A stretch of DNA of 35,259 bases from the IMG/VR virus record IMGVR_UViG_3300027704_000068, positions 1 to 35,259 of that record. One strand, given 5' to 3'. Positions 1,282-34,875 of the stretch are shown here, in pieces. The stretch is from a virus. Position numbers and translations under genes: made by a program. The notes under the pieces are model-generated. The model did not search any database. It had not been told where the DNA came from and saw only the letters and a list, made by a program, of their open reading frames with translations. Numbering within the stretch: position 1 is the first letter of the stretch; each line of letters opens with the position of its first letter.

Positions 1282-1504
1282 AGAGTTAATTAAAGTAGCA
1301 AAAGAAGCTATAGTCACTGACTCTGAAGATGACTTAACAGCTGACAAGCTGAAAAACGCCGCGGCATCAAAAAAACTAGCTATATTTGACGCATTTGAGA
1401 TACTTAACAGAATTCAAGAAGAAGAAAACCTACTCGAGGGAAAAGCACCTGAAGAGACAGAGGAAAAAGCTTTTAAAGGATTCGCAGAAGGTAGATCTAA
1501 GTAA
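1226..1504 (+). CDS. Small protein just before TerL, possible small terminase subunit
   Basis: 92 residues from the ATG at 1226, the only methionine that leaves a sensible overlap (56 bases) with the upstream gene; the open frame extends back to an ATG at 1139 but would then overlap far more. The core QAGHKAVEELIKVAKEAI and LKNAAASKKLAIFDAFEILN is strongly helical, and the C-terminus is acidic then basic (KGFAEGRSK). Small terminase subunits are usually small helical proteins encoded directly upstream of TerL, so position and fold fit. I see no helix-turn-helix that would prove DNA binding. Its TAA stop overlaps the TerL ATG (TAATG at 1502-1506). Confidence 0.65.
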   Translation: MNIKETKRSIIQAGHKAVEELIKVAKEAIVTDSEDDLTADKLKNAAASKKLAIFDAFEILNRIQEEENLLEGKAPEETEEKAFKGFAEGRSK

Positions 1505-17700: not shown

Positions 17701-19598
17701 TTGGTAATTTTAGAAACATAAGTGTTTCAGGACCAGCTAATCCCGAACCAGGAGATGAAGGTAGGGTCACTTGTCTAACCGTAACACCTATAATTAACTG
17801 TGACGAGGTACTTGGTTGTACGGATCCTTACGCAGATAATTACGATGCAAGTGCAACTACTGATGATGGATCTTGTGAATATCCAGTAGCGTGTATCACT
17901 AGTCATACCGACGACCCATCAAATCCTTATCCTGGTCATGACGGTACTCTTAATCGACCTGAAAACAGCCATCACTGGCATACATGGGTGCAAGGTGGAG
18001 AGACAGGAGGGTTCATACTAACGCCACTAGCAACAACAAGCTCATTTTCTACATGTACAACTTATTTAGAGTTTCATTTTGAGCATCCAGGAAGCAATGG
18101 TGGTGGACATAATTATGCTAGCACTATGGATAACGATGGAACAAATAGTAATATTGCAACGCTTACGCCTGGTGTGGGAATACCTCTTAATCTAACAAAC
18201 ACTAATTCTATAAGTTCGTCTGGAATGCCTACTATCTATGTGGATGAATTTGTTTTTGGATCTGATTGTGATGGAACATTTTACTTTGAGCTTTCAAATA
18301 TACACAACAATTGTACCTCGACATTCAGCATAACTACACAAGAACCTCTAGCTAATGACCCGGTATCCCAAGGCGATCTTTGCCAGTATGTTGGTGGTTG
18401 GACTATGGATCCTTTAACTAGTGACATTTGGAACTATGATTATGATTTTAGCCCGATGCAAGTTTCTACAATGAGCAATCAAATACCCGCAAGTATTAAC
18501 GACCACACTATTTTTACTGATATCGCACAAAACGGACAGGTTAGTAGTGAGGGTGGTTACGGAGTAATGAACTCACTACCATTCCACTCTAACTCAGCTC
18601 CAACAGCTCTAAGACCTAGATTTGGCTCGCAGCAAGGGTTAGCTAGTTGGTTACCTGAATACGAGATGCTTTATATATCAGACCCAGCTAATGGCTTGCA
18701 AAGCAATGATTTCCGAACAAAACAGTGGCCATACTTCTATCAAGGCGCTGGTAATGGTTGGCGTAGACCGGTAGCTATACAAACAAACCCAGGCGCTATG
18801 AATCCTGGTTCGTATTTAGCTGATGCTTATCAATCAATAATTGGAACCGGTGCAAATGGTAGTTGGAGATCAATATGCGCAGCGGGTCAGTACGCTGGTG
18901 GGACAAATACACTCTCAGGTAATATTATAAACGGTTGGAATCAGGATTGTGACCACGCTTTGTGTGGTACGCTAGCAGGTTACTATGGAAACTATGACTT
19001 TTCTGACGAAATGGGTTATGGTACTAATCAATGGTCAACCACTCCGGGGACAAATACAGGTCAAGGTCCTCAAAACATAACTGGAAATTGGGGCGCACAG
19101 CCATATCAAACCACCGGTCAAGGTTGTGATACAAATGGACAATGGTCAGGGTTTCTACTAACATTATACAGTTACGAGGAGGTTATCCATTACGTTAGAC
19201 TACTAGCTCTTCACTGTGCAGATAATGAACCTGAGTTTGGAACTGGAAGTAATCACACAGCAACACGGAAGGGAGTTGTAATGGAATTTTTGAAAAACGC
19301 AACACTCTCCACGCCTTGGTACGGACCAGCATATATTGATCCCAACGGACATCCAATTACAGCATCTCCAGATCCAGCATACTCGGTAAACACCGCGTAC
19401 GGTATAGAGGGATCGCTAAGATTTTGTTTCGATGACGCTAAATGCGGAATAATTTCTGACTGCTTTTTACAAACTGTATTTGTTAACTGTGCTGCTGGAG
19501 ATGGTATTGGGAACAATGTCGGTGCTTCTGGGCCTTATGTAGCACCTTCTTACTTTGAAACCCACGTTGCTCCTTCACTCTGTAAAACAAATTTATAA
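11757..19598 (+). CDS. Giant tail protein, muzzle/nozzle-like, with distal domains
   Basis: 2613 residues. The N-terminus (GFQKSKMNKDADERTVANGE, then YRDALNIQV) and the block ITGINIIDGMLFWTDNHTEP near residue 230 look like the start of the large nozzle/stabilisation protein of Bacteroidota podoviruses, a counterpart of T7 gp12. A Gly/Ser/His-rich region spans about 1000-1280. A propeller-like region follows (about 1700-1760, ESFAVDLTGRVYFTDRTRAA), then SFSENAKGWTSFKSFIPENG at about 1835. A Cys-containing LGCTDPYADNYDASATTDDG motif lies at 2019-2038, ending with SCEY. The remaining 570 residues have Trp, Gly, Asn and Cys richness typical of surface-exposed adhesion domains. It probably forms the tail below the rings, with the C-terminal part facing the host. 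No lytic or depolymerase motif is recognised. Confidence 0.75.
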   Translation: MAQSNRGFQKSKMNKDADERTVANGEYRDALNIQVSASDGSNVGSAQTILGNTLISGNMVPGGSTVVGSIAHNKEDKVYYLVAGPKPTAASWNQKGSWKDYIIEFDIKKESFKYVFVDIYQSNVESNTGVISRDIPVNIGTPSLFDSVRYEMVVQGFDSSGMQIITSDPSSNVEVISTSVTSSTTGIVNIYSTTQDFNSIPTPSGTWLNCKAERVLNFDKDHLITGINIIDGMLFWTDNHTEPKKIDIERSINGTGGGSPLPPLLSYTFPGDSDQFHTRLCITPDKTNPLRVKPRNETEPWYIKEANITVIRKGPVIPPSLEMSEHEDGRAGATYSETDGSPSGISGCPNVGCTSSTTAQNSWSINPPAGPDRIKKAGDTIDQVYVVNPVDWRIGDMILFNQQEDINSAEGFIDHDVRATVTSTPGGASTGPYSFEIQSIDKDAIDQEQKMWNIRMEEKKPMFEMKFVRFAYRYKYEDGEYSTFSPWSQPAFIPGEYDYLPKKAYNLGMTNRLRQLKITNYLLEGHYGIYNDVIEIDLLYKDEVGPQVYVVETLKMTDGWGVDGSPDLWPDKWKDWPVEDTTLRRKRGEYKVTSELISKVVPSNQMLRPWDNVPRKALAQEVTSNRLVYANYMQNFNLTSQYTDNEVKPIINLTLSVKDAPLNDPDLTGEEDSFSVLSLEEQVGNLEGFAKGVKTVRSLRTYQVGVVYGDKYGRETPVLAGKDGAGSLTINVENSSTINKLKAWVITDVPSFAAYYKFYVKETSNKYYNLAMDRWYLAEDGNIWISFASADRNKVDDETNIILKKMHDTHEPVTDLARYKIIAIENSAPKFIKTKVHLYGQVQPSATQLGSASIGFPMEFYNVLHLHTGSTNMTEVEEAWGKDNTAGGGGKGTITDKISSGFIYIRVRTKTVKSNWYQLASMAKSGSYYKMKLVKTFKKDVAFAGGSYANAASDLRVEFSSQFPEDKPEFEGRYFVKIYKDLILMKWLLQSKKKNYRTMAARPFHYFNQRKINQTRSSTGAQASWESSGVNVAGEFDASGGSHRNPCFSTSGVSVTSHGVDSISSCSNHSSTLNNRTFFYGMNSGTHTSGMGGAWFNTGSTIKNVRYWGQSSRHKFFIDGLITRGTESSGNICFPFATGLGSNAACANLFGKHFFNVGNRSDLTHRHGTSTSGKGQRRGRAIEDDGMKIHFGYIHTGGWAWNSAEDESWYNFMTTKGTMFRFSEDKDEVMYVVTGFNTSLDQNATGEGKHHLHSSWSSGNGGGIGMDNAGNNLRRFSIEIEQMEYPGVGLPSYVGGGAGFSGYHPLGGKTSTKIPGVAELGYWGGRPGATSINTSALGGAFDDNKDLQIPTPPDYQNEVVKVNGSAASNLKNDGAGGWEAGISGIQQARKYRMHPAKFHNIEILEEVPDDGDWSSKNPAVWETEPKEDVGMDIYYEASQAMPVNVNAYTNEQLAPIGSLVENDSGSDLPGGPWQLHSWSDTTFTMRLLDGNTPPSFTIQSGDRFRFTRPDGFVSTIIVNTPPGSAPWPATITIANYRLNVRGNTTAAVPSTPNFANSPHNQPVTLSWHNAIAFGNGVESDRIRDDFNANTISNGVKASTVLAIPYHEERRKAGLIHSGIYNSTSGLNSLNQFIAAEKITKDMNPSYGGIQKLHTRDNNIVVMHEDKIMKVLANKDALFNADQSKNVVVSKNFLGSDEPFSTRYGMSTNPESFAVDLTGRVYFTDRTRAAVLRLSNDGITNISDYGMKDWFNDHLNPETNTLLGSFDEKKGLYNLTIDGARQLAVDEVTTINDGDGGDNGVGCGCENGPGTNSSGGAEIISTDGNTLYTPVSTTVSFSENAKGWTSFKSFIPENGISINNEYYTFLDGEMWHHHSNSSRNQFYGDQYDSSIDIIFNDDPSAVKSYSGVNYEGTEARITGDLLDSNYFNLNDKTGWYVDTMTTNLQTTNNLEFKEKEGKYFTSIKGNTTTLANLDENEFSVQGIGNFRNISVSGPANPEPGDEGRVTCLTVTPIINCDEVLGCTDPYADNYDASATTDDGSCEYPVACITSHTDDPSNPYPGHDGTLNRPENSHHWHTWVQGGETGGFILTPLATTSSFSTCTTYLEFHFEHPGSNGGGHNYASTMDNDGTNSNIATLTPGVGIPLNLTNTNSISSSGMPTIYVDEFVFGSDCDGTFYFELSNIHNNCTSTFSITTQEPLANDPVSQGDLCQYVGGWTMDPLTSDIWNYDYDFSPMQVSTMSNQIPASINDHTIFTDIAQNGQVSSEGGYGVMNSLPFHSNSAPTALRPRFGSQQGLASWLPEYEMLYISDPANGLQSNDFRTKQWPYFYQGAGNGWRRPVAIQTNPGAMNPGSYLADAYQSIIGTGANGSWRSICAAGQYAGGTNTLSGNIINGWNQDCDHALCGTLAGYYGNYDFSDEMGYGTNQWSTTPGTNTGQGPQNITGNWGAQPYQTTGQGCDTNGQWSGFLLTLYSYEEVIHYVRLLALHCADNEPEFGTGSNHTATRKGVVMEFLKNATLSTPWYGPAYIDPNGHPITASPDPAYSVNTAYGIEGSLRFCFDDAKCGIISDCFLQTVFVNCAAGDGIGNNVGASGPYVAPSYFETHVAPSLCKTNL

Positions 19599-19600
19599 CT

Positions 19601-20377
19601 ATGGCAAACTATACTATTGAAAGAAGACAAGAAGCTGGGCATGTTTATGGGTGCACTCCGTTCGCCACCACACAGGAAGGCGGTCAGATAGCGTCTCCAG
19701 GTGGGCAATTAGACTCTACTATACAGTGGAATATAAAAGCTGATAGTGGTTATGTTCTTGATATTAATAATTTTATTATTCCTGGAACAAGTTTATCTGG
19801 CGTTATCTCTCTTCCAGTAACACCACCGACAGCCGTGTACAACACTGGTTTTACAAGCCCTATTTTAGGGGCCTCATTTGAGGGATACTCGGACACCTTG
19901 ATAGTTGTTACTCTTTTTTTAAGCCCATACCCTAGTTATAATATAACTGGAGCTAATTTTGTGATGCCAACATCACCCGTGGATATATCCGTTAACATAG
20001 AGGGCTGTGCGTTTTTAAAAGGCGAAGGAGTGCACTTGAGAATCATAGAGCCAGAAGATCCTCTTACTACTACAGAGATAGTTATACCGGAACAAAGACA
20101 ACAGTACATAGCTCACAACACTTTAGATGACGGTGCTCAACGTATATCAGGCGTGTTAGAACCTACAGAGGATGGGGCTGAGATTGTAAGAGAAAACTTC
20201 ATAATGAGTTATAGTGTTAGAGCAGCTAATGGCATGAGATACGCATATCCGCCAACACTGGATTTTAACGATGTAGACTATTACTACACATCTACACTTG
20301 AGTACAAAGATAGTTTATTCCCAGGTAGAAGTCAAGATATTTGTGGCGTTGTATTTGATATATTTAAAAAACAATAA
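19601..20377 (+). CDS. Beta-rich tail accessory protein, function unknown
   Basis: 258 residues, starting 2 bases after the giant tail gene. Nearly all of it predicts as beta strands. The segment ITGANFVMPTSPVDISVNIE resembles the ends of InlB-B-like extracellular repeats (F.MP...V.V...), with a similar, weaker pattern earlier (VLDINNFIIPGTSLSGVISL). Such repeats are common in adhesins. Tight coupling to the tail gene suggests a co-assembled tail tip or fibre component. I do not recognise a named family for the whole protein. Confidence 0.6.
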   Translation: MANYTIERRQEAGHVYGCTPFATTQEGGQIASPGGQLDSTIQWNIKADSGYVLDINNFIIPGTSLSGVISLPVTPPTAVYNTGFTSPILGASFEGYSDTLIVVTLFLSPYPSYNITGANFVMPTSPVDISVNIEGCAFLKGEGVHLRIIEPEDPLTTTEIVIPEQRQQYIAHNTLDDGAQRISGVLEPTEDGAEIVRENFIMSYSVRAANGMRYAYPPTLDFNDVDYYYTSTLEYKDSLFPGRSQDICGVVFDIFKKQ

Positions 20378-20378
20378 A

Positions 20379-21683
20379 ATGGCATATAAAAAAACAGGTA
20401 TACAGCTTCAAAAAGATATAACTAAGAAACTTCTAGAATCTAAAACCAAGACAAGTAAGAAACCAAAGCTAAAAAGAAAAGAGAAGACAAGTGAAGCTAA
20501 CGTAATAGATAGTGCCATAGAAACGTCTACAGGTAGAGATATCAACGAGCTTAGTTTTAATGACTTAAGTGAATTAGACAAAGACAAAAGTGCCACGGTA
20601 TCACAAGATGATTTAGCGGCACTTGGTATAACCAACTTAGTAGGAGGCGAAGCTTCCATTGGTGAGGTTAAGAAGATTTTAGAGAAAAGACCTTTAGTGC
20701 CAGCACTGCAGGCTAGTGTTTTTAATTTAAACTACCAAATCGAGCCAGCGCCAATCCCTGCTATAAATAACCTATACTCGCTACAAACTAAGAGGGCAGA
20801 TATTTTTAACAAATTCGTACCGGACAAAGAATTTCGATCAGATAAAAATCTACCATACCAAGGTACATCGTATCACATAAATAAGTTCCTAAACCAAGAA
20901 GCATCACGAATTGAAATCGTAGTGACTGGCGATGTGGGTACTGCTTATAAATTAGTTATAAAAGATAACACAAATAACACTTATTACAACGAGACAGTAG
21001 GTTTGTTTAGGACTGGTTTTCATGAGATTAGCGGTTTAATTGGAGAACAGGAGGATGTTAGGGGTACAACCAGCAGCGAGGTAGAGGTTATGATACCGAT
21101 GAACATATACGAGACTGAGTATTATGTTTACCTCGTTAGCGATGGTGTAGTGCAACTAGGGCCTGGCTTGCCAACTGCGCAGATGCCTTGGGTAATAAAC
21201 CAATTACCCGATGTTACAACTACCTTAGTACTTACTACTGAAGCCAACTTTGGGGCTATTGGTGGTACCCAGGTGATTAAACATAAGCCAGGTGCCTTTC
21301 TATCTAGTCTGAAAAATTCATCAGCCGCTGTTGGTAGAGACGGTGAGTCTGATGACTCTAGAATACAAGCGGTGCAGCCTAGTAGTTTTGGTGATGCTAA
21401 CTTTACCCTAACAGTTGCGCCGGGAACTGGTGAGTATGATGTCATAAGCCTAGAAGAGAGTGTTCTTAATCAATTAGTTGAAACCCGTAGCATATATTCT
21501 AATGGAACAGACACTTATACCGCTACGGAGGTTTTAGAGCACAACCTAGTGATATCTGTTACTGGAAGCGGTACTGACATGAGAGGTAAGGTAACAGGTA
21601 CAATGCTATTAGGGAAAAGTGGTATACGGAACTCTATTATATATATAAATACTGATGACTTATTTAATCTTGCTGCTAATTAA
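20379..21683 (+). CDS. Tail-associated beta protein with an EF-hand loop
   Basis: 434 residues from the ATG at 20379 (MAYKKTGIQL), one base after the previous stop; the frame is open further upstream but that start would overlap the neighbour by 80 bases. Residues 10-40 are very basic. Residues 67-78 (DKDKSATVSQDD) match the canonical EF-hand calcium loop DxDxSxTxSxxD. Residues about 125-434 are beta-rich, with IEIVVTGDVGTAYKLVIKD and ETEYYVYLVSDG resembling repeated sandwich folds. The likely place is the tail or baseplate, with calcium stabilising the N-terminal part. Not recognised as a named family. Confidence 0.65.
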   Translation: MAYKKTGIQLQKDITKKLLESKTKTSKKPKLKRKEKTSEANVIDSAIETSTGRDINELSFNDLSELDKDKSATVSQDDLAALGITNLVGGEASIGEVKKILEKRPLVPALQASVFNLNYQIEPAPIPAINNLYSLQTKRADIFNKFVPDKEFRSDKNLPYQGTSYHINKFLNQEASRIEIVVTGDVGTAYKLVIKDNTNNTYYNETVGLFRTGFHEISGLIGEQEDVRGTTSSEVEVMIPMNIYETEYYVYLVSDGVVQLGPGLPTAQMPWVINQLPDVTTTLVLTTEANFGAIGGTQVIKHKPGAFLSSLKNSSAAVGRDGESDDSRIQAVQPSSFGDANFTLTVAPGTGEYDVISLEESVLNQLVETRSIYSNGTDTYTATEVLEHNLVISVTGSGTDMRGKVTGTMLLGKSGIRNSIIYINTDDLFNLAAN

Positions 21684-22697: not shown

Positions 22698-23543
22698 ATG
22701 AGTTTTGTAGTAGCGGCAGTAGGTGTAGGTGTTGGGGTCATGAAGTTTATGGGTGCTAGTAAAGCCAAGAAAGAAGCAGCAGCAGCTCAGAAAAAAGCTA
22801 AGGCTGAAATGGATAAGAAAAAGAAAGAGTATGAGGCTCTGGACACTTCTAATCTAGCGGCTAATCAAGAAAATAAAATGGAGGACCTTACCATTAACCA
22901 AAAAGGTATGGAGAACCAAGCTAGAACCTCTGCACAGAATAGATCTAATATAATGGATGGTATGAATGCTGCTGCTGGTGGTTCCGGTATAGCCGCTTTA
23001 GCACAAACCATGGCTAACCAAGGATCTAAAGATGCGGCGGCGGAAGGAGCTATGATCGGTGATCAAGAAGCAGCTAATCAAAAAGCCTCCTCACAAGAAG
23101 CCTCTAAATTACAAGCGGCAGAGGTTGAGGGCGCGGGTGCTGCAAGAGATTTAAAGTACAAGAAAACATCTAATCTAATGGGTATGGCTGCTGCCGACGC
23201 TAAAGCTGCAGGGGATGCTAAAGCTCAAGCTAGTAAAGATAAGATGAGTGCTATTGGTGGTATAGCCACCTCTGCAATTGGCTTGTCAGATAGAAGGTTA
23301 AAAACGGATATTGAAAAAGTTGGGGTGTCACCTAAAGGCATAAACATATATCATTTTAAATACAAAGATCCAGATATGGTGAAATCTTGGACTACCGAGT
23401 TTAACTCTGGTGGGTTTGATTTTCATGGTAAAATCCAAGGCGTTATGTCAGACGAAGTGCCTAAGGAAGCTGTTGGAGAATTTCATGGTTATGATTTCGT
23501 AAATTATAGCTTGTTAGATGTAGAACATAAAAACATAGTATAA
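22698..23543 (+). CDS. gp14-like internal virion protein with C-terminal S74 domain
   Basis: 281 residues. A hydrophobic N-terminus (SFVVAAVGVGVGVMKFMG) is followed by an Ala/Lys/Gln-rich helical region to about 195, an architecture like T7 gp14, which inserts into the outer membrane during DNA ejection. Residues about 196-281 match the intramolecular chaperone/peptidase S74 domain: GLSDRRLKTDIEKVG with the Ser197-Lys202 pair, then FKYKDP, a GVMSDEVPKEAV block and VNYSLLDVEHKN. In endosialidase-type fibres this domain trimerises, assists folding and cuts itself off before the Ser. If active here, it would release a 196-residue helical protein, the size of T7 gp14. First of three genes of the putative ejection cassette. 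Confidence 0.75.
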   Translation: MSFVVAAVGVGVGVMKFMGASKAKKEAAAAQKKAKAEMDKKKKEYEALDTSNLAANQENKMEDLTINQKGMENQARTSAQNRSNIMDGMNAAAGGSGIAALAQTMANQGSKDAAAEGAMIGDQEAANQKASSQEASKLQAAEVEGAGAARDLKYKKTSNLMGMAAADAKAAGDAKAQASKDKMSAIGGIATSAIGLSDRRLKTDIEKVGVSPKGINIYHFKYKDPDMVKSWTTEFNSGGFDFHGKIQGVMSDEVPKEAVGEFHGYDFVNYSLLDVEHKNIV

Positions 23544-23545
23544 TT

Positions 23546-25051
23546 ATGGCGGGAGATAACGCAGGAGGTACAACTAGTGAGTTCATGAAAATGGGCAAGA
23601 TGATGGGTCAATCAAACAATCCTAGCAACAGTGGGATGTATGATGGCTTGGATAAAGTTACCGAGAAATTAATGGCTAATAAGCTAGCTAGACAAGCGGA
23701 GGTAAAAGGCGAGAGAGAGTCTCTTAGGAAAGAAAGAAAGTTAGCTGGGCAAAAACTTACAAATGAATTCACAGAAATGGGTCCTACTCTAAAGGTATTG
23801 GGCCCAGAATCTTTTGGACAAGCACAGACTGAGATAGAAGGTTTAAGACAGCAGATGTTTGAAGCTATTGATGCTGGTGATCAAAAAAAGATAGCAGAAC
23901 TAAACATGAAGCTTAACGATATAAAAACGAGGCACTCTGGGGATGCTGAAAACCTAACTACACTAATAGATTCCTGGGAGTCAGATACCGTGAGTACAGA
24001 CGCTATGACTAAGGAGAATATAGATGTTCTAACTAATTTCGCTGCAAACAAAACCAAGAAAGAAGTTTATGTGGAAAATGAAGATGGTGTTCCAGAGCTT
24101 AGGTATGAGTGGGATACTGAGGAGCCTTTATTAGACGAAACTACTGGCGAGCAACAAATAGACGAAGAAGGTAATCCAATGTTTGTAAAGGATCAAAAAT
24201 CCCTAGCTGAAATGCAAGACATGCTAGTAACCAAGGATACTGTCAACGGTAACAAAATGCTAGATCTAGGTCAAGAGCTAAAGGTTGGTTATAAAGATAA
24301 ATCACCAATGAGTGATGCTGACATAAAGCATAAGGTAGGAGAGATAATACCTCAAGATCCTAAAGCTATAAGAGATTGGTTACATGGTAACCCAGCTGAA
24401 TTTCCAGGTCTAAACGTTCACGACTACTTAAGCGATCTAATGAACACAGATTATGGTACATTTGATAAATTAGGTATTGATTTAACAAAACCGGAGTATG
24501 CACATTTAGATAAAGACAAAGAAGGTGATGATGGTTATGGTACGGTTGAAGCTGACGAGGTTCCAGAGGCGTTTAGAGAAGAACTAATAAACAATGTACT
24601 AGACGTAAAGGATCTAGAAGTATCGCATGGTATTATTACCGAGATATATTCTAGTCTTATGAAAAATAATATGATGGGTATTAGTAATGAAGATCAACGT
24701 GATCCTAGCGAAACAACTATACTAGGCAACAAAGAGAGCTCTAGCGCTAAAGCTAGTAACGATGCTAATGAAACTCTTGAAAAATTAAAAAGTCTAGGTG
24801 ATCCAGATTCGCCTATACATGCTGAAATAGCTAGAATGAATGAAGCACAAATAGCTACACACATACTTGGTTCTGGAGCAAAATGGACTGACGAGGTATA
24901 TGATCCAGTAACTAAAGAAAAAATTACATTAGCTAAATACATTGCTGATGCTAAAAACAAAAAATCAAAACCCAACGAGCAGAACCCCAAGGATCCAATG
25001 GCGGGTATGACAGCTGCACAAAAAATTCAATACATAAAAGATAATAAATAA
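23546..25051 (+). CDS. Putative second ejection (gp15-like) protein
   Basis: 501 residues, acidic and mostly helical, without transmembrane segments or cysteines. Early segments include GLDKVTEKLMANKLARQAEV and a coiled-coil-like QTEIEGLRQQMFEAIDAGD. A beta-hairpin-like acidic insert lies at about 170-215, and a Lys-rich tail at the end (ADAKNKKSKPNEQNPKDPMA). It sits between the gp14-like and the giant protein and overlaps the latter by one base (TAATG at 25049-25053). This order equals T7 gp14-gp15-gp16, so it may form the periplasmic or internal-core part of the ejection machine. No sequence similarity to gp15 is visible; the assignment is from order and size only. Confidence 0.6.
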   Translation: MAGDNAGGTTSEFMKMGKMMGQSNNPSNSGMYDGLDKVTEKLMANKLARQAEVKGERESLRKERKLAGQKLTNEFTEMGPTLKVLGPESFGQAQTEIEGLRQQMFEAIDAGDQKKIAELNMKLNDIKTRHSGDAENLTTLIDSWESDTVSTDAMTKENIDVLTNFAANKTKKEVYVENEDGVPELRYEWDTEEPLLDETTGEQQIDEEGNPMFVKDQKSLAEMQDMLVTKDTVNGNKMLDLGQELKVGYKDKSPMSDADIKHKVGEIIPQDPKAIRDWLHGNPAEFPGLNVHDYLSDLMNTDYGTFDKLGIDLTKPEYAHLDKDKEGDDGYGTVEADEVPEAFREELINNVLDVKDLEVSHGIITEIYSSLMKNNMMGISNEDQRDPSETTILGNKESSSAKASNDANETLEKLKSLGDPDSPIHAEIARMNEAQIATHILGSGAKWTDEVYDPVTKEKITLAKYIADAKNKKSKPNEQNPKDPMAGMTAAQKIQYIKDNK

Positions 25052-28000
25052 TGCCTGAAACACCAGAAGAAACTCTTAAAGCTCCTTCGATGGAGGAGAT
25101 AGAAGCGTCTAAAGCTAGAGGTGAGCAAACTGCTTTTAACAGGGGTCCAGATGGAGAACTGTTAGAAGAGGGTTATACAATGAACGATGCTGGAGAGGTT
25201 GTTTATGTTGGCGAAGGAGATGAGCCAGCTGCAACTACCACTGCGAATACTAATGAGTTAGAAGAAATAGTTCAATTCATGATGGACTCCGGACAGTCTG
25301 ACAAGAGTATTAGAGAGGTTGTAAAAGCTTATAAAGAAGATTTCCCTGCGGATGAAGAAGTAAAGGAAGAAACACCACCGGCGGATGTCCCTGTGGAAGA
25401 AGACGTTACGGCATCCAACTCGGAAAACTATTCTTCGGATGGGAAGTTAAAAGCAGATAGTGAGGGTAATACAGTTGACGAATCATATAAAGGTAAGAAG
25501 GTTGAGGTAGACGATTTAGATGCTAGTGGATTGGTTGAACTTGACGAAGAAGATTTAGAGGCTTATTTTAAAAGAAACATACCTTTAGCATCTACTAACC
25601 AAAGTGGTACTCCTATGGCTGGTAATGCTGTTAGAGTAAAACTTCCAGGTATGGAGGAAGTTGAAATAGATAACAAAGCTTTTTCATTAAACCCATTTGG
25701 ACCATCAAATGATGAGTTAAAGAAAATAGAGGCTGAGAAAATGCAAGCTTTAATAGATCATAATAAAAAGCTAGAAGGTATGCCATACTTAAATGCTTTT
25801 AAAACAGGTATTCGCGGTTGGGGTGGTAAAGGGGGTGTTGATTTATCTCAGAAAAAAATAGAACCAAAGCAGTTTAGTTGGATTCAACAAAATTACAAGG
25901 ACATCATGGGTATTGATATTAGTGAGACTGAAAGTTCTAGTCAAGGGATTATCACTCATGGTTATAAGGTTCGTGATGGAGATGGTAACATGTTGTTTCA
26001 GGGTTCAGCAACAGAGTTGCAAGACTACATGTATAACAATCCACCTAACAAAGAGCAAACCAAACTACTAGCACAAAAAACAAAAGAAGGTAGAGAGAAT
26101 AACTTTGGAGATAAAACCGTTAAAGAAGATATAGCTGCTCAAACAAACGAAGCTGTTGCCAGTGAGTTTATGCAAGCAAAAAGTGGTTATAGTACGTTAG
26201 TAGCGAATAATATGGGCATTGGTGCTGATGATATGTTTAATTCTGGAGAAAGAGAGTCCAAAAAAGTGAGTTCTATTTCAAGCGCCCTAGCAATGTATAT
26301 GAGGCAAGGCGGGGCAAAGGATACTAAAAGCCCTACTGAGTTTGCTGAGAAATTTATAGAGTGGGGTAGTGGGCTGGACGCTGCTTTTATGTTAGAGGAG
26401 ACTTTTGCTATGATTGGTGAAAACAAAGAAGGTCTTATAAACTCACTAACATTGCTGAAAGCTGATGATGGCAAGCTAATAAAGGATGGAGTTGCTGGGT
26501 TAAGAGTTAAAAATATTGCTAATATAAAAGAAGAGAACTTAAAGAATGGTGGTTTTCAGAATTTAATAGTAGCTAACGACATACACACAAAGGAGGAGTT
26601 GGTATCACAGCACGCTTTAACAAAAGCTGATATTAAAAAGTTTAAACCTACTATAGAAAAAGATACAGCTAAATTTAAAAAACAATACCAAGACATATAT
26701 GATCAAGCTAGTGTAGATGGAATAACTAGCATAGATCAAAGTAAGGCCACTGGATTATTCACGGTTAAAGGGAATAACGAGGAGGTTGCAAAACAGTATC
26801 AAGCAGAGTTAAATGCCTTGAACAATACAGTTAGTCAAAAGCAAGCCTACTATAATTCACAAGGCACTGTTTTAAATGAGCAGTACAATTCTCAAATCAA
26901 GCAATTAGGATTAGCTGATGTAGAGCTAGGTAAATCAACAAAAAACTTCTCGTTGATGGATGCAGTTCAAGATGATATTGAATCTAGTTTTAGTGGTTTG
27001 GTTTATCAACCAGCAGCGTTATTTGGTAGCACAGCTGCTATGGATAAAATAACCACTAGTCAAGAGGTAAACGCTGAGTTGTATCCGGAGATGGACTTTT
27101 CGAAAGGCGGTTGGAATTACACAGCTAGAACATGGGCTCAACAATCAGGTGTGTTAGCTTTAGCTATCGCAACACAAGGAGCTGGTACAGCGTTAGGGTT
27201 AACAGAGGCAGCTATAGCTACAACTACAGCTACAATGTTTGGTGTTGGCGCTGCGGGTGGTAAAAGAGCGGAGCTAGAAGCTCAGTTGCAAAACGTCGAC
27301 ATGACACATCAAGCTATTCTTGAGTTAGAATCCATGAAGGAAACAATGGATCCAGAACAGTACAAGAAAGCAAGGCTAGCACTAGTTAAAGCTAGAGATG
27401 ATAGTAACATGAGTAATACTCAAAAGTGGGGTTTAATAGTTTCCACGGGTATAATAGAAGGTACTGTTACTAGGTTTTTAGGTACAATACCTAATCTTAG
27501 TAAAACATGGAAAGCTGTAACAAGTCCTTTAGATGACGTGGCTGGATTAATTGCTAGAAAGAATTTACAAGCAACTGGTAGTGCTTTATTTCAAATAGGT
27601 AAAAGTGTTGGAGGTGAGATATTGGAGGAAGAGTTAATACATTTTGGTACCGCTGGTGCAGAAGCAGCTTGGTTAGGCAATGAAGTTGATTTTAGTGGTT
27701 GGCAAGATGTAGCTTTATCAGCTATTATGGTGTCTGGACCTATGAATGGTCCTGGTATGGCTTACTCGACATATGCTCAGCAAGTTGCCACTAAGGGCAT
27801 GCGTGAAAACCACTATCGTATCACAAGTGAACTAGGTGATTTACGCGCTGAGTTACTAGATCTTGATATAAATAGTGAGACATATGCCGAAGATGAAGGA
27901 AGATTGCGAGATAAAAGACAAAGTTTACTTGGAGAATTAACTAGCATGAATAGTGAGATGGAACTCCAGGTTATGGGGTTAGGAGCCGAGAACATGGCTA

Positions 28001-31000
28001 GCATGGTTACTAATGGAAGACGTATTAGTGATTTAGGCAGGGAAGCTGGGGTTGACCCATCTTTAGACACAGATACACAAACAGAACAAGTTAAAGCTTA
28101 TGCTGAGACATTAGAGCCTGATGCTAAAGAAGCTTTTATGAAAAAATGGAATTCTGCTATTAATGGTAAGAATGATTCATTTAACAAGAAAGCTGAGTGG
28201 AAGGATACTATAGAAAAAGTTTATGGTGATAAAGGTAAATCTATTTACGATGCTTTAGTGAAAGAAAATCCTGAGCTAAAAGATGCTACAGAAAAAGAGA
28301 AAGCTATAGCTGTACATGAGGAATTTAAAAAACAAAGAGTTGATGTAGCTATAGGTAAGGCTAAATCAAATCCAAATATAGTTGCACAAGTAGAGAACTT
28401 CATCTATGGTATGCCTTGGAAAGAAGCAGAGGGTAGAGGGTTCGAAAGACGACAAGGTGCGGAAAACAATGCTTACCAGAAGATAGGAGAGAGTGTACAA
28501 ACTGATATAAGAACTGGTGTTAAGCTTATAAAAGAACAATCAAAACAAGCAGCAGGAGTGCTTGGAAACAAAAGATTAAGCGAACTAAAGGTTACAGAGG
28601 CTAAAACAGATCAAGAGCTAATAAAAGAGACGAATAGAGCTTATGATGCAATGTATGAAATACAAGCCGCTAGAATTGATGCTGGTATAGATGAGGATGT
28701 TAAAGGTATGTCTGATGCTGATAAAGAATCAGCTAAACAAGTTTATAGAGCTGACTTTGCTCACGAGGCAGAACAATCAATTGCTGAGATTAAATCAGGC
28801 GCTACTAACGGTGTTATAGTTGGTGGTGAGTATATAGTTAGAGATATAAAAGCTGGTAACACAGCTGTTCGTGAAGGGTATTTACTTGCTGGTACTGTTA
28901 TGTCACATGAGATTTCTCACGCTGTAGATAATTTAGCTTTCGACAAAGCAGGTTTATTAAACTACGGGGAAAACCTATTTGATTACATGGCTGAAAACCA
29001 CCCGGAGATACATGCTAATGTACTACAAGGTCAAGAGCAGATAAATAATTATAGTAGGCAGGGAGATGCTTTCCCTAATGGTAAGCAGTTATTTTTTGAT
29101 GAGTACACTAAGATGGCTCAAGATATAATACAACGCCCAGAGAGTAAAAAAGCTTATGACAAAATACAAAAGCTTAATCAAAGCATGCCTAATGCCTTAA
29201 GAGCTATGACTAGGGGTGATTATGCTATCAACACACCTAGAGACGCAGCTGTTTATCTAGGTAGTTTTGTTGATGGCTTTAAGAATGATAAACTAGGTAG
29301 GTTACAAGAAAGAAAAATAGATGCTAAAGGCACTAAGGGACAAGTTGACATTAAAACTAAAAAGTCAGCAAACGTATCGCCAGTGTTACACTCCCAAGCT
29401 AACGCGGTGGGTAAAGAGGCTAACGATTTTTATGCTAACAGAGCTAACAATCCTGAGTACTCTTACGATATAGCTAAGTTGTTTGAACCTATGCTTGGAA
29501 AGTACTTAAATCGTATTGAAGCCGAAGGAGCTATACTGGGTAAGCAAGATGAGTATGGTCAAGTGAGTGGCGATGAGAGAGCTCAAAACATTGCTGACTA
29601 CAAGATGAATGGTATGTACGCTAAAAGGGGTATTGTTGATCTTGTTGAAAACGGGTTTAACCCAGAGGAAATGATTGAAGTTATAGATCCTGCCACTGGA
29701 GAGACAGTTCTTGAACCCAACACTATATCTAAATACTTAAACGGTGTATTCCCGCAAAGGTTATCTGAGTTTACAAAAAATACTACAGTAGATTTTGGTG
29801 GGTTTAAAGTGGATATAACCAAAGCCGCTAACATTGTTACCACAGAGACAGATCAAGCTATAAACGATATACTTACAACTAGCGTTCAAGATCAACTGAA
29901 CACACCTTTGCTGTCTGGTATAACTCTTAGCGCAGAACAGATAATAACGTTAAGAGAAGCCGTGTCAAGTATTGTTGGTAGAAAGCTACCAGCTATAGAT
30001 GCTATTGTTTCAAAAAATAAATCCGTAACACCATTAATAGCTGCTTTAAAAAAAGAGCTAGCAATCAAAGGTAGTGACCTGCACAACTTAGTATACGAGA
30101 TTATTGGTCAAAGTAAAGCGGAAGTAGAACAATTCTTAACAGACCCTAAGAATAAGAAAATGATGTTAGATGCTCTAACAACAACTTGGTTGGCTAAAAA
30201 CATACCCATGGCTGTTCAGAAAGAAGTTAACGGTATTGGATACACGACTGATTTCAAAGGTAGAACAAAAGGAACTAAACCTGGTCAAATTAATTTTTGG
30301 AGATCATCTGAAGATGGTCCCTACAAAGGTATGACTGATGGTAAGCAAAAGATTAGAAGAAACCCTAACGCTATAAAGGATGTTTCTAATGCCATGTTGT
30401 TAAGCATGTTTAACAAAGGTGTTACTATGACTGATGTTAAAAGAGCTGGTTTAGAAAAACTATCTTTAGCAATAACTCAAGAGTTTGGCTTAGAAGCTTT
30501 TAAAGCTGACATGATAAACGAAGGGCCACTGAAAGAATTATTTGTTGGTAGACAGGACTTGTTTGACAGGACATTGGCGGGTAATTTTGTAGAAGAGTTT
30601 GTTAGACAAACCGAGAGAGGTGTTACTAAGCGCTCTGAAAATTATCAAAAAAATTACGATTTAGGTAATCCAGAAGATGCTCTTACAGAAGAGCGAGTTG
30701 GAGTAGCTGCTTACGCTTTGATTAAGGATGTAATACAAAACTACGATAAAAATAAAAGATACGGTGGTCTAGAAGCTAAGCTAGAAGGATACCCTAGTTA
30801 TATGGTGGAGGCTTTTACTGAGGCGGGAATATTTGAAATGTTTGACACTGAGCGCAAGGCTAAGTTTGTTGGCCCAACAAAAGCTATGAGTTGGTTTGGT
30901 TTTGGTAAGGCTAAAGAAACATACCTTGAGAATGGTACTCAAAGTAAAACCATGAAAGACCTTCAAGCGCGTAACTCTAGCGAATTGATTAAACAACTAC

Positions 31001-34000
31001 CACCACAATTAGTTAGAAAGCTAGGTCCAGAGTTTTTTGGTTTAGGAAGTGAAAGAGGACTTGATGGATCTTTTAAAAAAAGAAAAGGTGGGAAGGGCGA
31101 GTATAATTGGTTACGTATAGAGTTTGATGAGGCTTCAAAACCCGAGCTTGATTGGAAAGATAATGATCCTAGACTAGTAGATGATAAAGGAAAAAGTACT
31201 TTGCCTTTTGATATTAGTAAAGTTGAAATGTTAAATTCCAGTAGTGGTTTAATGTCTTCTATAGAAACTATACAAGACATGGCTGTTCCAAAGAGTAAGA
31301 AAATAGAGTTAATGGGAAGGTTAAAATCTAGGATTGATGGAGCAAACACAAATAATAAAAAATTCTTAACATGGGTTTTAGCTGAGAACGCTAAGCTTGT
31401 GGCTAACAATCCTGAGTTCGCAGCTGGGTTAGCTAGTTTAATGCAAGGCGCTACAAATAACGTTAAGGGTTTCAGAGGTTACACCGGTCTTGGTATGATC
31501 AAAATTATGGATGGTTCACAAGCACCTTATTTAACCAAGGATGGTAAACCAACTAGAGTGAACACTGGGATTGTAAACACAGGGCATCCAGATTATAAGA
31601 GAGCTCTAGAGTTTACCAAAGGAGACGCTGAGCTAGCGGGTGAGTTAATTATATATAAAGGCGAACACATAGACCCAAGCGCTAACGTTAACCAGAGATT
31701 GTTTAGCCTTACTTTAGAGCTAGCTGATATGCTTAGTACTAATCCAAAGGCTGTACATAAACAGATACTAAGTGAGTATCAATCTAAAATGGGTCAAGAA
31801 GTTCAAAACTTTGATCAATCTTTAGGTACTAAGTTGGATTCTGATATGCAAGACGCTGCTCTTACTTCAACTAATGAATCAGCCTATGCTAGAAATCTAG
31901 TTATAGAAGATCAATTGAAACACTATGTTAACACTGAAAACTTTGGAGTTGTTGAGGATGTAGTAAAAAACAAAACCATTGGCATGTTACAACTTGTTGG
32001 TATATCTGAAAGGTTGAAAGCTAAAAGACTTCAGAATGCAGAGACTGAATCTAGGAAGTCTAAAAACCCTAATGGCATTACAGTATTAGATTTTGATGAC
32101 ACGTTGGCTACGAGCAACTCTGAGGTTCTCTCTACATCTCCAGAGGGTGTTGTTAGAAAGTTGACCGCAGAACAGTTTGCAAATGAAGGTGCCGATCTAC
32201 TAAGCCAAGGCTGGACTCATGATTTTTCAGAATTCAACAAGGTTGTTGATGGGAAGATAGCATCGTTATTTCAAAAAGCATTAAAATTACAAGGTAAGTT
32301 TGGTAATAACAATATGTTTGTGCTAACCGCTAGACCACAAGAGTCTGCTCAGTCTATATATGAGTTCTTAAAAGCTAATGGTTTAAATATACCATTAAAA
32401 AATATTACTGGCTTAGCTAACTCAACCGCTGAAGCTAAAGCTCTTTGGATAGCAGATAAAGTTGCTGAGGGTTATAACGATTTCTACTTTGCTGATGACG
32501 CAATGCAAAACGTGGATGCTGTTAGGGAAATGCTAGAAAGGTATGACGTTAAATCTAAGGTTCAGCAAGCTAAAAGATCAGCTAACCCTAGTTTAGAGTT
32601 TAACAATATAATACAAGAGAGTACTGGTGTGGAGTCTTTGAAACAGTTCTCTGAAGCTCAAGCTAAAGTAAGAGGTGCTAAAACAAAGTATAAGTCTATT
32701 ATACCTGCTTCTGCTCAAGATTTCTCTGGATTACTATATAGTTTTATTGGTAAAGGTAAAAAAGGAGAGGCTGATATGGCATTCTTCAAGAAAACATTAA
32801 TAGATCCTTTCGCTAGAGGTATAGATCAACTAAATGCCTCAAGACAAGGCGCTGCTAATGACTATGCAAACCTAAATAAGACGTTCCCTGAAACTAAGAA
32901 AATAATAAACGACAAAATCCCTGGAAGTGAGTTCACTGTTGACCAAGCTGTTAGGGTGTATCTTTGGAATAAAGCGGGTTTTGAAATACCAGGTTTATCA
33001 AATAGAGACCTTAACATGCTTGCTAGTGTTGTTGAGGGCGACAGTGAATTACAAGCCTACGCAGATGGGGTTGGGCTGATATCCAAGCAGGAGGATGGTT
33101 ACTCTAGGCCTGGAGAATATTGGTTGGCTGAAAACATAACATCCGACTTACTTAGTGATGGTGCTATTGGGGATGCTAGAGCTGACGTAATGGCTGAGTG
33201 GCAGCAAAATGTAGACCAAGTGTTTTCAAAAGAAAACCTTAATAAGATAGAAGCTATATACGGTAGTAAGTTTAGAGAAGCTCTTCAAGACATTTTGTAT
33301 AGAATGAAGACTGGTAGAAATAGACCAGCAGGTGGAGGTAGAATGGTTAACCAGTACATGAACTGGGTCAACAACTCTGTTGGTGCTATTATGTTCTTGA
33401 ACATGAGATCGGCAACATTGCAAACTATATCTATGACTAATTATGTAAATTGGTCCGATAACAATCCGTTGAAAACAGCTCAGGCATTTGCTAATCAACC
33501 ACAGTTTTGGAGCGACTTCTCTATGATATGGAATTCTGACTACTTAAAGCAAAGGAGATCTGGTAACCAAAGAGGTATTAATGAGGCTGAATTGTCAGCT
33601 GCGGTCGCTGGTGCCGAGAACAAAGCTAAAGCGGCTTTAAACTATTTACTTAAAAAAGGTTTTACCCCAACACAGTTAGCGGATAGCTTTGCGATATCAA
33701 TGGGTGGTGCTCCGTTTTTTAGAAACAGAACCAACAAGTATGTCAAAGAAGGTATGAGCCAAAAAGACGCGGAGGCAAGAGCATTTTTAGATTTCCAAGA
33801 AACAACAGAGGTTTCTCAGCAATCAGCTAGACCTGATATGATATCTCAACAACAAGCATCTCCACTTGGTAGGTTGATATTATCATTTCAAAATACTCCA
33901 ATGCAGTATGCTAGGATAATGAACAAAGCCACTAGAGATCTAGTTAATGGTAGAGGTGATACTAAAACCCACATTTCTAAAATAGCTTACTACGGGTTTA

Positions 34001-34875
34001 TTCAGAGTGTAATATTTGGGTCGTTGCAATCAGCGCTTTATGCTTCGCTAGGAGATGATGATGAGGAAGTTTTTGACAAGAAGAAAGAAAGAATAATAAA
34101 CCAAATGATAGACTCATGGTTAACTGGTATCGGATATGGGGGTAAAGCTATTAGTACTGTTAAAAACTCTATAAAAGAATATTTAAAACAAAGGGATAAA
34201 GGCTTTAGAGCGGATCACGCTTATACCATATTGTCTCTTCTTAGTTTCTCGCCACCTATAGGTTCTAAACTACGTAAAATATATTCATCAATAAAAACAG
34301 AGGAGTTTAATAGGGGTGTGTTTTCAAAACGAGGTTTATCTTTAGATAATCCAATTTGGTCAGGTATTGGTAATGTTGTAGAGGGTTTTACAAATGCTCC
34401 GCTTGGTAGGATATCTAATCTAATGTTGCAATTAGATAACGCTATGGACTCTAACCACAAATGGTGGCAGCGTGTAGCTTTGATACTAGGGCAGAACACT
34501 TGGGATCTTGGGATTAAAGATCCAGACATAGAAGCTGCTAAAAACGAAGTGAAGGAAGAAAAAGCTGTTATCAGTAAAGAAAAGCAAAAAAAGAAAAAAG
34601 AAGAAAAAAAGAAAGAAAAACAAAAAGAAAACGCAGTCGTAATAGAGGAAAACAAAAAGAGAAGCAAGAAAGATGGCGTTTGTTCTGCGGTAAGTAAAGG
34701 AGGTAGTAGGTGTAAAACAAAGGTGGTTGAAGGTAAGTTGTTTTGTACAGTGCACGAGAAAACCGAGCAAAGGTCAGATGGTAAAAAAACACAATGCCGA
34801 AAAAGAAAATCAGACGACACTAGGTGTAAGATGAAAACCACAAACAAGAGTGGTTATTGCTACTACCACGATTAA
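25051..34875 (+). CDS. Giant polyvalent ejection protein (zincin + HAD + zinc modules)
   Basis: 3274 residues. Acidic N-terminus (1-175). Hydrophobic segments at about 697-738 (GVLALAIATQGAGTALGL...), 793-815 and 887-906. A zincin motif H1286-E1287-x-x-H1290 (MSHEISHAVDN) has a candidate third ligand, E1351 (FFDEYTKM). A HAD phosphatase domain spans about 2340-2500: D2347-F-D2349-D-T, T2426 (LTARP), K2463/K2470 and D2482-D2483 (FADDAMQN). A helical region resembling 'large polyvalent protein' C-terminal domains runs from about 2540 to 3165, with hydrophobic stretches at 2774-2801 and 2981-3002. Then come a Lys/Glu linker (about 3168-3205) and two Cys/His modules (3211-3273). Probably packaged in the head and injected with DNA. 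It lacks a recognisable lytic transglycosylase and RNA polymerase motifs. Confidence 0.8.
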   Translation: MPETPEETLKAPSMEEIEASKARGEQTAFNRGPDGELLEEGYTMNDAGEVVYVGEGDEPAATTTANTNELEEIVQFMMDSGQSDKSIREVVKAYKEDFPADEEVKEETPPADVPVEEDVTASNSENYSSDGKLKADSEGNTVDESYKGKKVEVDDLDASGLVELDEEDLEAYFKRNIPLASTNQSGTPMAGNAVRVKLPGMEEVEIDNKAFSLNPFGPSNDELKKIEAEKMQALIDHNKKLEGMPYLNAFKTGIRGWGGKGGVDLSQKKIEPKQFSWIQQNYKDIMGIDISETESSSQGIITHGYKVRDGDGNMLFQGSATELQDYMYNNPPNKEQTKLLAQKTKEGRENNFGDKTVKEDIAAQTNEAVASEFMQAKSGYSTLVANNMGIGADDMFNSGERESKKVSSISSALAMYMRQGGAKDTKSPTEFAEKFIEWGSGLDAAFMLEETFAMIGENKEGLINSLTLLKADDGKLIKDGVAGLRVKNIANIKEENLKNGGFQNLIVANDIHTKEELVSQHALTKADIKKFKPTIEKDTAKFKKQYQDIYDQASVDGITSIDQSKATGLFTVKGNNEEVAKQYQAELNALNNTVSQKQAYYNSQGTVLNEQYNSQIKQLGLADVELGKSTKNFSLMDAVQDDIESSFSGLVYQPAALFGSTAAMDKITTSQEVNAELYPEMDFSKGGWNYTARTWAQQSGVLALAIATQGAGTALGLTEAAIATTTATMFGVGAAGGKRAELEAQLQNVDMTHQAILELESMKETMDPEQYKKARLALVKARDDSNMSNTQKWGLIVSTGIIEGTVTRFLGTIPNLSKTWKAVTSPLDDVAGLIARKNLQATGSALFQIGKSVGGEILEEELIHFGTAGAEAAWLGNEVDFSGWQDVALSAIMVSGPMNGPGMAYSTYAQQVATKGMRENHYRITSELGDLRAELLDLDINSETYAEDEGRLRDKRQSLLGELTSMNSEMELQVMGLGAENMASMVTNGRRISDLGREAGVDPSLDTDTQTEQVKAYAETLEPDAKEAFMKKWNSAINGKNDSFNKKAEWKDTIEKVYGDKGKSIYDALVKENPELKDATEKEKAIAVHEEFKKQRVDVAIGKAKSNPNIVAQVENFIYGMPWKEAEGRGFERRQGAENNAYQKIGESVQTDIRTGVKLIKEQSKQAAGVLGNKRLSELKVTEAKTDQELIKETNRAYDAMYEIQAARIDAGIDEDVKGMSDADKESAKQVYRADFAHEAEQSIAEIKSGATNGVIVGGEYIVRDIKAGNTAVREGYLLAGTVMSHEISHAVDNLAFDKAGLLNYGENLFDYMAENHPEIHANVLQGQEQINNYSRQGDAFPNGKQLFFDEYTKMAQDIIQRPESKKAYDKIQKLNQSMPNALRAMTRGDYAINTPRDAAVYLGSFVDGFKNDKLGRLQERKIDAKGTKGQVDIKTKKSANVSPVLHSQANAVGKEANDFYANRANNPEYSYDIAKLFEPMLGKYLNRIEAEGAILGKQDEYGQVSGDERAQNIADYKMNGMYAKRGIVDLVENGFNPEEMIEVIDPATGETVLEPNTISKYLNGVFPQRLSEFTKNTTVDFGGFKVDITKAANIVTTETDQAINDILTTSVQDQLNTPLLSGITLSAEQIITLREAVSSIVGRKLPAIDAIVSKNKSVTPLIAALKKELAIKGSDLHNLVYEIIGQSKAEVEQFLTDPKNKKMMLDALTTTWLAKNIPMAVQKEVNGIGYTTDFKGRTKGTKPGQINFWRSSEDGPYKGMTDGKQKIRRNPNAIKDVSNAMLLSMFNKGVTMTDVKRAGLEKLSLAITQEFGLEAFKADMINEGPLKELFVGRQDLFDRTLAGNFVEEFVRQTERGVTKRSENYQKNYDLGNPEDALTEERVGVAAYALIKDVIQNYDKNKRYGGLEAKLEGYPSYMVEAFTEAGIFEMFDTERKAKFVGPTKAMSWFGFGKAKETYLENGTQSKTMKDLQARNSSELIKQLPPQLVRKLGPEFFGLGSERGLDGSFKKRKGGKGEYNWLRIEFDEASKPELDWKDNDPRLVDDKGKSTLPFDISKVEMLNSSSGLMSSIETIQDMAVPKSKKIELMGRLKSRIDGANTNNKKFLTWVLAENAKLVANNPEFAAGLASLMQGATNNVKGFRGYTGLGMIKIMDGSQAPYLTKDGKPTRVNTGIVNTGHPDYKRALEFTKGDAELAGELIIYKGEHIDPSANVNQRLFSLTLELADMLSTNPKAVHKQILSEYQSKMGQEVQNFDQSLGTKLDSDMQDAALTSTNESAYARNLVIEDQLKHYVNTENFGVVEDVVKNKTIGMLQLVGISERLKAKRLQNAETESRKSKNPNGITVLDFDDTLATSNSEVLSTSPEGVVRKLTAEQFANEGADLLSQGWTHDFSEFNKVVDGKIASLFQKALKLQGKFGNNNMFVLTARPQESAQSIYEFLKANGLNIPLKNITGLANSTAEAKALWIADKVAEGYNDFYFADDAMQNVDAVREMLERYDVKSKVQQAKRSANPSLEFNNIIQESTGVESLKQFSEAQAKVRGAKTKYKSIIPASAQDFSGLLYSFIGKGKKGEADMAFFKKTLIDPFARGIDQLNASRQGAANDYANLNKTFPETKKIINDKIPGSEFTVDQAVRVYLWNKAGFEIPGLSNRDLNMLASVVEGDSELQAYADGVGLISKQEDGYSRPGEYWLAENITSDLLSDGAIGDARADVMAEWQQNVDQVFSKENLNKIEAIYGSKFREALQDILYRMKTGRNRPAGGGRMVNQYMNWVNNSVGAIMFLNMRSATLQTISMTNYVNWSDNNPLKTAQAFANQPQFWSDFSMIWNSDYLKQRRSGNQRGINEAELSAAVAGAENKAKAALNYLLKKGFTPTQLADSFAISMGGAPFFRNRTNKYVKEGMSQKDAEARAFLDFQETTEVSQQSARPDMISQQQASPLGRLILSFQNTPMQYARIMNKATRDLVNGRGDTKTHISKIAYYGFIQSVIFGSLQSALYASLGDDDEEVFDKKKERIINQMIDSWLTGIGYGGKAISTVKNSIKEYLKQRDKGFRADHAYTILSLLSFSPPIGSKLRKIYSSIKTEEFNRGVFSKRGLSLDNPIWSGIGNVVEGFTNAPLGRISNLMLQLDNAMDSNHKWWQRVALILGQNTWDLGIKDPDIEAAKNEVKEEKAVISKEKQKKKKEEKKKEKQKENAVVIEENKKRSKKDGVCSAVSKGGSRCKTKVVEGKLFCTVHEKTEQRSDGKKTQCRKRKSDDTRCKMKTTNKSGYCYYHD
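34681..34872 (+). repeat. Tandem C-x9-C-x10-C-x2-H zinc-binding modules
   Basis: The last 64 residues of the giant protein hold two modules with identical spacing: C3211, C3221, C3232, H3235 and C3249, C3259, C3270, H3273. Both have the pattern C...[GD].RCK.K......[FY]C..H. This is like short zinc-binding domains of the DUF5763 type (recalled, not searched). They follow a lysine-rich linker and may bind nucleic acid. Confidence 0.75.

Follow-up and report, generated by a model that had tools for sequence, protein, structure and literature searches.

The virus record IMGVR_UViG_3300027704_000068 of IMG/VR, 35,259 bases long and analyzed over its full length (the window), raises the question of what is encoded by three tightly spaced open reading frames (ORFs) that lie 3' of the portal and tail genes. 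These code for P0001 (281 amino acids [aa]; 22698-23543), P0002 (501 aa; 23546-25051), and P0003 (3,274 aa; 25051-34875), with the P0002 and P0003 ORFs overlapping as TAATG; all three are on the + strand. A sequence-only reading had given exactly these ORFs and had proposed a cassette like gp14-gp15-gp16 of phage T7, with a much larger third component. The three genes probably constitute a podoviral ejection triad of the N4-like size class. The triad most likely works like those of N4 or T7 but is filed under neither, because searches for the polymerase of N4 and the transglycosylase of T7 found no trace of them. What is new lies in the enzymes that the third protein carries and in its modularity, not in its giant size.

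The arrangement itself is strongly conserved. A P0001 homologue is directly 5' of a mid-size ORF, which is followed by a giant ORF, in 62 of 65 fetched loci, with median intergenic gaps of 11.5 and 10 bases, and this small-mid-giant order is not due to chance. These 65 are the fetched loci with complete ORFs at both upstream positions; they belong to a set of 80 (L116 to L195, the best 80 of 586 confirmed) that includes 73 complete giants, 65 complete small-position ORFs, and 72 complete mid-position ORFs, with L174, L175, and L179 being near copies. The set was fetched with the conserved core of P0003, by patterns inside its HAD domain, so the core and HAD domain are present in these loci by construction. 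The independent set is eight contigs (G001 to G008) fetched by portal, which is 69 to 72% identical to that of the window; G001 is the same contig as L170. These contigs have the same three size classes in the same order except at contig ends, which truncate the giants of G003 and G006. The complete giants range from 2,068 to 4,134 aa (n = 73), and the triad occupies the same genomic place in phi38:1, phi46:3, elemo, Panino, Gundel, and ctfjg026.

P0001 (22698-23543, +) occupies the first position, that of gp14 or N4 gp52, and is the small alanine-rich protein with a hydrophobic N terminus that the sequence-only reading had described, with 17.1% alanine (17.3% in T7 gp14) and a hydrophobic peak at residues 1 to 19 (Kyte-Doolittle 1.78). 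An AF2 model (pLDDT 69) predicts long helices at residues 15 to 47, 68 to 92, and 98 to 190, with a Gly/Ser turn at residue 94 between two of them; the turn is at residue 92 in T7 gp14. An iterated hidden Markov model search shows P0001 to be homologous to annotated virion proteins, namely phi38:1 gp99, phi46:3 gp117, elemo gp22, Panino CDS0072, and Gundel gp72, and hhalign comparison of the P0001 clade alignment with a six-row outgroup alignment gives a probability of 96.1%. By blastp, the window P0001 matches 59 of 65 small proteins, and this family is better conserved than that of P0002.

The C terminus of P0001 (residues 197 to 281; 23286-23540, +) resembles the S74 intramolecular chaperone domain. 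The Pfam match (PF13884, residues 197 to 226) has an E value of 0.0054 and 17.4 bits, under the 22-bit cut-off, and tblastn links the tail to S74-bearing first ejection proteins. S74 domains are typical of tail spikes, and a short tail fibre or adhesin-like gene is directly 5' of P0001 (22091-22693, +; phrog_12032, E 7.9e-31); both would suit a reading that puts the three proteins outside the capsid as components of the tail or baseplate, such as host-binding or autoprocessing fibre proteins. That reading is set aside because the S74 tail is found on first ejection proteins or on the first genes of comparable rows: in H6/1 it is on a protein annotated as an ejection protein, with two more ejection proteins after it, and in pCB2047-C and PAE2 it is on the first gene of the row. 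The motif is also present in only 7 of 62 P0001 relatives, and the phosphatase and kinase domains described below make little sense outside the cell, so a location in the tail is very improbable. A further S74 match, MW202675, lacks a clean triad.

P0002 (23546-25051, +) occupies the second position (gp15 or N4 gp51-like) and shares its N-terminal ∼210 residues with relatives, the remainder being variable. It has no hydrophobic segment (Kyte-Doolittle maximum 0.58), in agreement with its earlier description as a mid-size soluble protein. When 88 mid-position proteins were searched with a profile of residues 13 to 225, 35 matched, P0002 itself counted; this pool combines the 72 loci with 16 comparison proteins, T7 among them. 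Divergence is fast, and blastp with the window P0002 matches just 5 of 72 mid proteins.

P0003 (25051-34875, +), the proposed giant third ejection protein, is organized as a mosaic carrier of several enzymes. Its fixed part is the last ∼830 residues (the core), which aligns in ∼80 of the giants searched, most of them fetched by the core. The N-terminal two thirds are mosaic, with the exception of a zincin-type metallopeptidase region (residues 1150 to 1480; 28498-29490, +) identified by a profile and by invariant residues. The region contains an HExxH motif, HEISH, at residues 1286 to 1290 (28906-28920, +), and Glu1351 (29101-29103, +) is a candidate third zinc ligand, invariant along with H1286, E1287, and H1290 in a nine-row alignment; an HExxH motif with a downstream Glu is an arrangement that Iyer et al. 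describe for polyvalent-protein zincins (PMC5512222). HExxH is present in 80 of 82 related giants compared with 1.3% of shuffled ones, and for 70 of the 82 the motif falls within the zincin profile. Seven of the eight portal-chosen contigs have the motif, and the eighth has HEVLGH. Among the isolate and named giants, HExxH is present in those of elemo, Gundel, and ctfjg only. None of six isolate giants matched the starting zincin profile well; with an enlarged profile, hhalign gives 90.7% for elemo gp20, only 20% for Gundel, and 33% for ctfjg.

The second enzyme domain is a HAD phosphatase domain at the start of the core (residues 2340 to 2509; 32068-32577, +), with the motif DFDDT at residue 2347. 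Together with the HExxH at 1286, this bears out the expectation that the very large third protein would carry an enzyme domain. The domain has a HAD fold in the AF2 model of the core (pLDDT 76) and contains the four HAD motifs. The presumed catalytic residues D2347, D2349, T2351, T2426, R2428, K2463, D2482, and D2483 show no variation across all 57 rows, and in the eight portal-chosen contigs the HAD motif is present in all and LTARP in seven. The best solved structure by VIA-align is the T4 Pnkp 3'-phosphatase (5uj0_B; Z 13.2, rmsd 2.5, 126 aligned residues), and the top five, with Z values of 12.0 to 13.2, are all polynucleotide kinase-phosphatases, four from T4 and one a bacterial Pnkp1; the next has Z 11.7. 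Foldseek with the core found no PDB hit at E ≤ 0.001, and the HAD assignment rests on VIA-align of the predicted model plus the motifs. The domain could be a Pnkp-type 3'-phosphatase that acts on nucleic acid ends. The HAD motif is in none of the isolate and named giants, and the combination of zincin and HAD domains is therefore a feature of the window clade.

Some relatives add a kinase to this domain. In G002 (L089:9825-12899) and G004 (L095), a P-loop kinase (AAA_33, Zeta_toxin) is inserted between HAD motifs I and II, and two members of the nine-row set match the PHROG polynucleotide kinase family phrog_505. The spacing of the HAD motifs, measurable in 71 of 82 giants, is 78 residues in 56, 80 in 6, and 277 in 9; loci with the 277-residue spacing include L122, L128, L136, L184, and L190, and the insert is a P-loop kinase in the two examined, G002 and G004. 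The kinase is absent from the window P0003. In the interpretation of Iyer et al., zeta-type kinases target cell wall precursors (PMC5512222), so the inserted kinase does not prove a role in nucleic acid repair.

The remainder of the core is a conserved helical region (residues 2510 to 3165; 32578-34545, +) whose model has BFVD fold matches (55 hits at E ≤ 0.001), several of them labeled polyvalent. It is followed by a Lys-rich linker and two Cys/His knuckles resembling DUF5763 at the very C terminus (34546-34872, +); Pfam gives DUF5763 in the relative G002 with 19.2 bits, under the 26.3 cut-off. A Cys/His knuckle of this kind is present in 28 of 74 giants, and there are also giants with a basic tail at this end. 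Over the terminal 30 residues of the giants, the net charge has a median of +7.5, and 83% of 64 are at or above the 95th percentile of background; basic C-terminal residues are also described for gp16 of close T7 relatives (PMC8954989). An A-rich low-complexity tract at window positions 34576-34632 codes for the Lys-rich linker.

These features of P0003 bear on an alternative in which it is head cargo only, a packaged effector like T4 Alt or P1 DdrB that stays outside the conduit, with P0001 and P0002 as chaperones or anchors. The zincin, the HAD domain, the swappable modules, and a C-terminal fold like that of polyvalent proteins (PMC5512222) are all consistent with such cargo, but its fixed coupling with a small hydrophobic and a mid-size protein is not, and the N4 giant both travels in the particle and belongs to the ejectosome (PMC12633501, PMC10925440). 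We consider the cargo-only role unlikely.

Upstream of the core, P0003 is a patchwork of segments with narrow distributions. Residues 1 to 550 match at most one other giant over nearly the full length. Module A (residues 646 to 937; 26986-27861, +) is in 11 giants, module B (residues 1594 to 1862; 29830-30636, +) in 13, and module C (residues 1935 to 2294; 30853-31932, +) in 10, the window included in each count. PDB sequence searches gave no usable match for module B or for any of A3, A5, A6, and A8; the best for A6 was aureolysin (E 0.21). P0003 used alone as the query of a scan retrieved no relatives, and tblastn against named phages with the first 1,383 residues was likewise empty; the last part gave weak matches to Gundel_1 and one uncultured phage only. 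Among the six isolate giants, the core profile matches only that of Gundel (gp74; hhalign 90.2%). Other enzymes occur in the giants of isolates: the Panino counterpart (L002:12232-17718) has a tRNA-methyltransferase-like domain (phrog_4752, E 1.7e-16), which is another exchangeable enzyme, and elemo gp20 (L003:29921-41002) is annotated with DUF3293, which Pfam finds in one of five isolate giants (E 1e-12).

Several observations weigh against assigning the three genes to an ejection apparatus. The window is a metagenomic fragment without a known host, and no sequence similarity was found between its triad and either T7 gp14, gp15, and gp16 or the N4 ejection proteins. The hydropathy threshold of 1.6 is reached by only 28 of 64 small-protein relatives and by 15 of 64 giants, with no segment of the window P0003 reaching it. 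The P0001 model, of modest quality, has no match among solved structures (best Z 4.6). Pnkp leads other HAD folds by only ∼1.5 Z units, which makes the substrate of the HAD domain uncertain. In favor of the assignment, the records label as structural all three proteins of phi38:1, the first, second, and giant proteins of phi46:3, the first protein and the giant of both elemo and Gundel, and the first only in Panino; these labels were not traced to data, and a literature search for papers on elemo proteomics found none. The missing similarity to T7 and N4 is itself uninformative, because ejection proteins, accepted and assigned alike, seldom detect one another: in a control with T7, SP6, phiKMV, P-SSP7, HTVC019P, H6/1, PAE2, and pCB2047-C, some of which were assigned by position, hhalign probability came to 5% or more for only 8 of 84 same-position pairs, and T7 gp14 and gp15 had no match at all. 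The window triad shows the traits from which podoviral ejection proteins are recognized (PMC8954989), namely gene order, size classes, an Ala-rich and hydrophobic small protein, a mid protein that looks soluble and diverges very fast, and a location 3' of the tail genes; the P-SSP7 gp15 and gp16 annotations read "assigned by synteny and size."

If the three genes form an ejection triad, we infer that the proteins are located in the capsid, are ejected, and form a conduit. P0001 would be the small membrane-active component that leaves first and extends the tail into the outer membrane, P0002 would be the second component, of the periplasmic-tunnel class, and P0003 would travel in the virion and be the last to be threaded into the cell. 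The C-terminal block of P0003, with the HAD phosphatase and helical region, would serve as a chassis, and the N-terminal two thirds as exchangeable modules, nearly always with a zincin-type metallopeptidase among them. After entry, the zincin may cut the giant protein itself or host proteins. The Pnkp-like phosphatase, with its inserted kinase in some relatives, may remove 3'-phosphates from RNA or DNA ends, and such end repair would counter, for example, host nucleases ahead of any phage gene expression. A more speculative extension, which we put forward tentatively, is that this abundant marine phage lineage delivers end-repair enzymes with its genome, the chassis phosphatase, in some members with an inserted polynucleotide-kinase-like domain, repairing RNA (tRNA) or DNA ends cut by host defenses before phage genes are read, and the modules being payloads released by the zincin; the tRNA-methyltransferase-like domain of Panino fits this RNA-directed theme.

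If the ejection reading holds, N4 with its RNA polymerase would be one case of a wider design, in which a giant third protein carries swappable enzymes. A phosphatase of the polynucleotide-repair type would be present as the genome enters, at a stage when host nucleases are active and phage gene expression has yet to begin, and the two enzyme domains of P0003 could let the phage act on its host at the instant of entry. The isolates phi38:1, elemo, Gundel, and Panino, together with a clear biochemical target, make this reading testable.

The other genes of the window place it in a well-populated phage group. They are arranged as terminase, portal, several virion genes, a first giant of 2,613 aa, the adhesin-like gene, and the triad. 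The terminase large subunit (1504-3720, +; phrog_6681, E 1.6e-166) and portal protein (3722-6142, +; phrog_6547, E 6.8e-145) match 87 phage records, 86 of which are from phages of Flavobacterium, Cellulophaga, Tenacibaculum, and Maribacter; microscopy shows two related isolates, Gundel and Calle, to be podoviral (PMC8776804). The group is common in viral contig collections, where there are at least 600 portal-pattern matches, 599 of those listed being relatives. The first giant (11757-19598, +; phrog_14478, E 2.9e-113) is a virion structural protein, probably a tail protein facing the host, and varies from 946 to 3,652 aa across relatives with shared segments retained. Between it and the adhesin-like gene are two ORFs of 258 and 461 aa (19601-21683), overlapping as called, which have no match in the 11 relatives compared and no clear family; relatives differ at that site. 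A GroES-like co-chaperonin gene (691-1281; phrog_13932, E 2e-19) is shortly 5' of the terminase, as in several isolates. The gene after P0003 (34910-35257, cut by the window end) is 81 to 85% identical in three relatives, far above the conservation of the cassette, and its 366-aa homologue has no PHROG match.

Comparison with T7 accounts for part of the sequence-only reading. The likeness to gp14-gp15-gp16 is in order, position, the character of the first two proteins, and rapid divergence, and these parts of the claim stand along with the size classes; the specific tie to T7 does not, as neither sequence similarity nor a gp16-type transglycosylase was found. P0003 is also 2.5 times longer than the T7 third protein and carries other enzymes. 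A true T7-type set, in which P0003 is an enlarged gp16 that builds the channel and opens the cell wall, could draw on the shared synteny, size classes, alanine content, hydrophobic N terminus, and basic C terminus, and on the similarly placed Gly/Ser turn. However, a phmmer search with T7 gp16 residues 1 to 160 against all giants matched T7 alone, Pfam likewise found no transglycosylase, other enzymes and mosaic modules dominate P0003, and N4 is a better fit for size and for HExxH; a set of this type is thus decidedly unlikely. The third ejection protein of P22 is not known to have an N-terminal transglycosylase. No T7 protein is among the structural matches listed for the core and P0001 models, an absence that is not evidence of differing folds.

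N4 is the closer comparison, and T7 a fair analogy. N4 gp52, gp51, and gp50 are 150, 644, and 3,500 aa in the same order, with an HExxH in gp50 at residue 2228. Structural preprints describe gp50-gp52 as ejection proteins, call the DEV counterparts gp73-gp72-gp71 functionally equivalent to gp14, gp15, and gp16, and give gp50 a C1 domain with HExxH and a large helical C2 (PMC12633501, PMC10925440). The window triad thus resembles those of the Schitoviridae N4 and DEV in order, sizes, the HExxH of the giant, its helical C-terminal region, and its place after capsid and tail genes. The much larger third component that the sequence-only reading had emphasized is real, at 3,274 aa, but such a component is already known, because N4 gp50 and DEV gp71 (3,398 aa; PMC10925440) are described as ejected. 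The giants differ in content: gp50 carries an RNA polymerase, and P0003 carries mosaic modules together with a HAD phosphatase resembling Pnkp, with the HAD domain and other modules between the HExxH and the helical region. The N4 RNA polymerase domain (residues 998 to 2103) gives hhalign probabilities of no more than 0.4% and no phmmer hit against all giants, and a virion RNA polymerase in P0003 was set aside after these and null Pfam and PDB sequence searches. The N4 and P0003-family zincins align with a probability of only 4.3% by hhalign, which does not establish homology.

P0003 also resembles the polyvalent proteins of Iyer et al. (2017; PMC5512222), being a very large multidomain protein with a zincin and other enzymes in a phage with a portal and terminase, and its C-terminal predicted fold is shared with proteins that have ART-PolyVal or large polyvalent protein associated domains. 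An LPD38 profile found nothing in the window and nothing in LPD38 controls either. According to Iyer et al., encapsidation requires the matching region of the N4 RNA polymerase. A search of the main text of that article gave no match for phosphatase, haloacid, or zeta toxin; polynucleotide occurs there once, for 2H phosphoesterases, and kinase sixteen times, those shown being protein or zeta-toxin-like kinases (PMC5512222).

Two further systems resemble parts of the triad. T4 Pnkp is the nearest fold to the P0003 HAD domain, which retains the HAD motifs, and some relatives have a P-loop kinase; the T4 kinase is fused in front of the phosphatase, whereas the HAD domain of P0003 is within a giant protein and the kinase of its relatives is inserted inside the HAD domain. 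The triads of phi38:1 (gp99-gp101), phi46:3 (gp117, gp118, and gp120), and elemo (gp22-gp20), in the Pervagoviridae, Pachyviridae, and Elemovirus, have the same order and a homologous small protein, and their giants are annotated as structural; of these giants, elemo gp20 alone has HExxH and none has the HAD motif.

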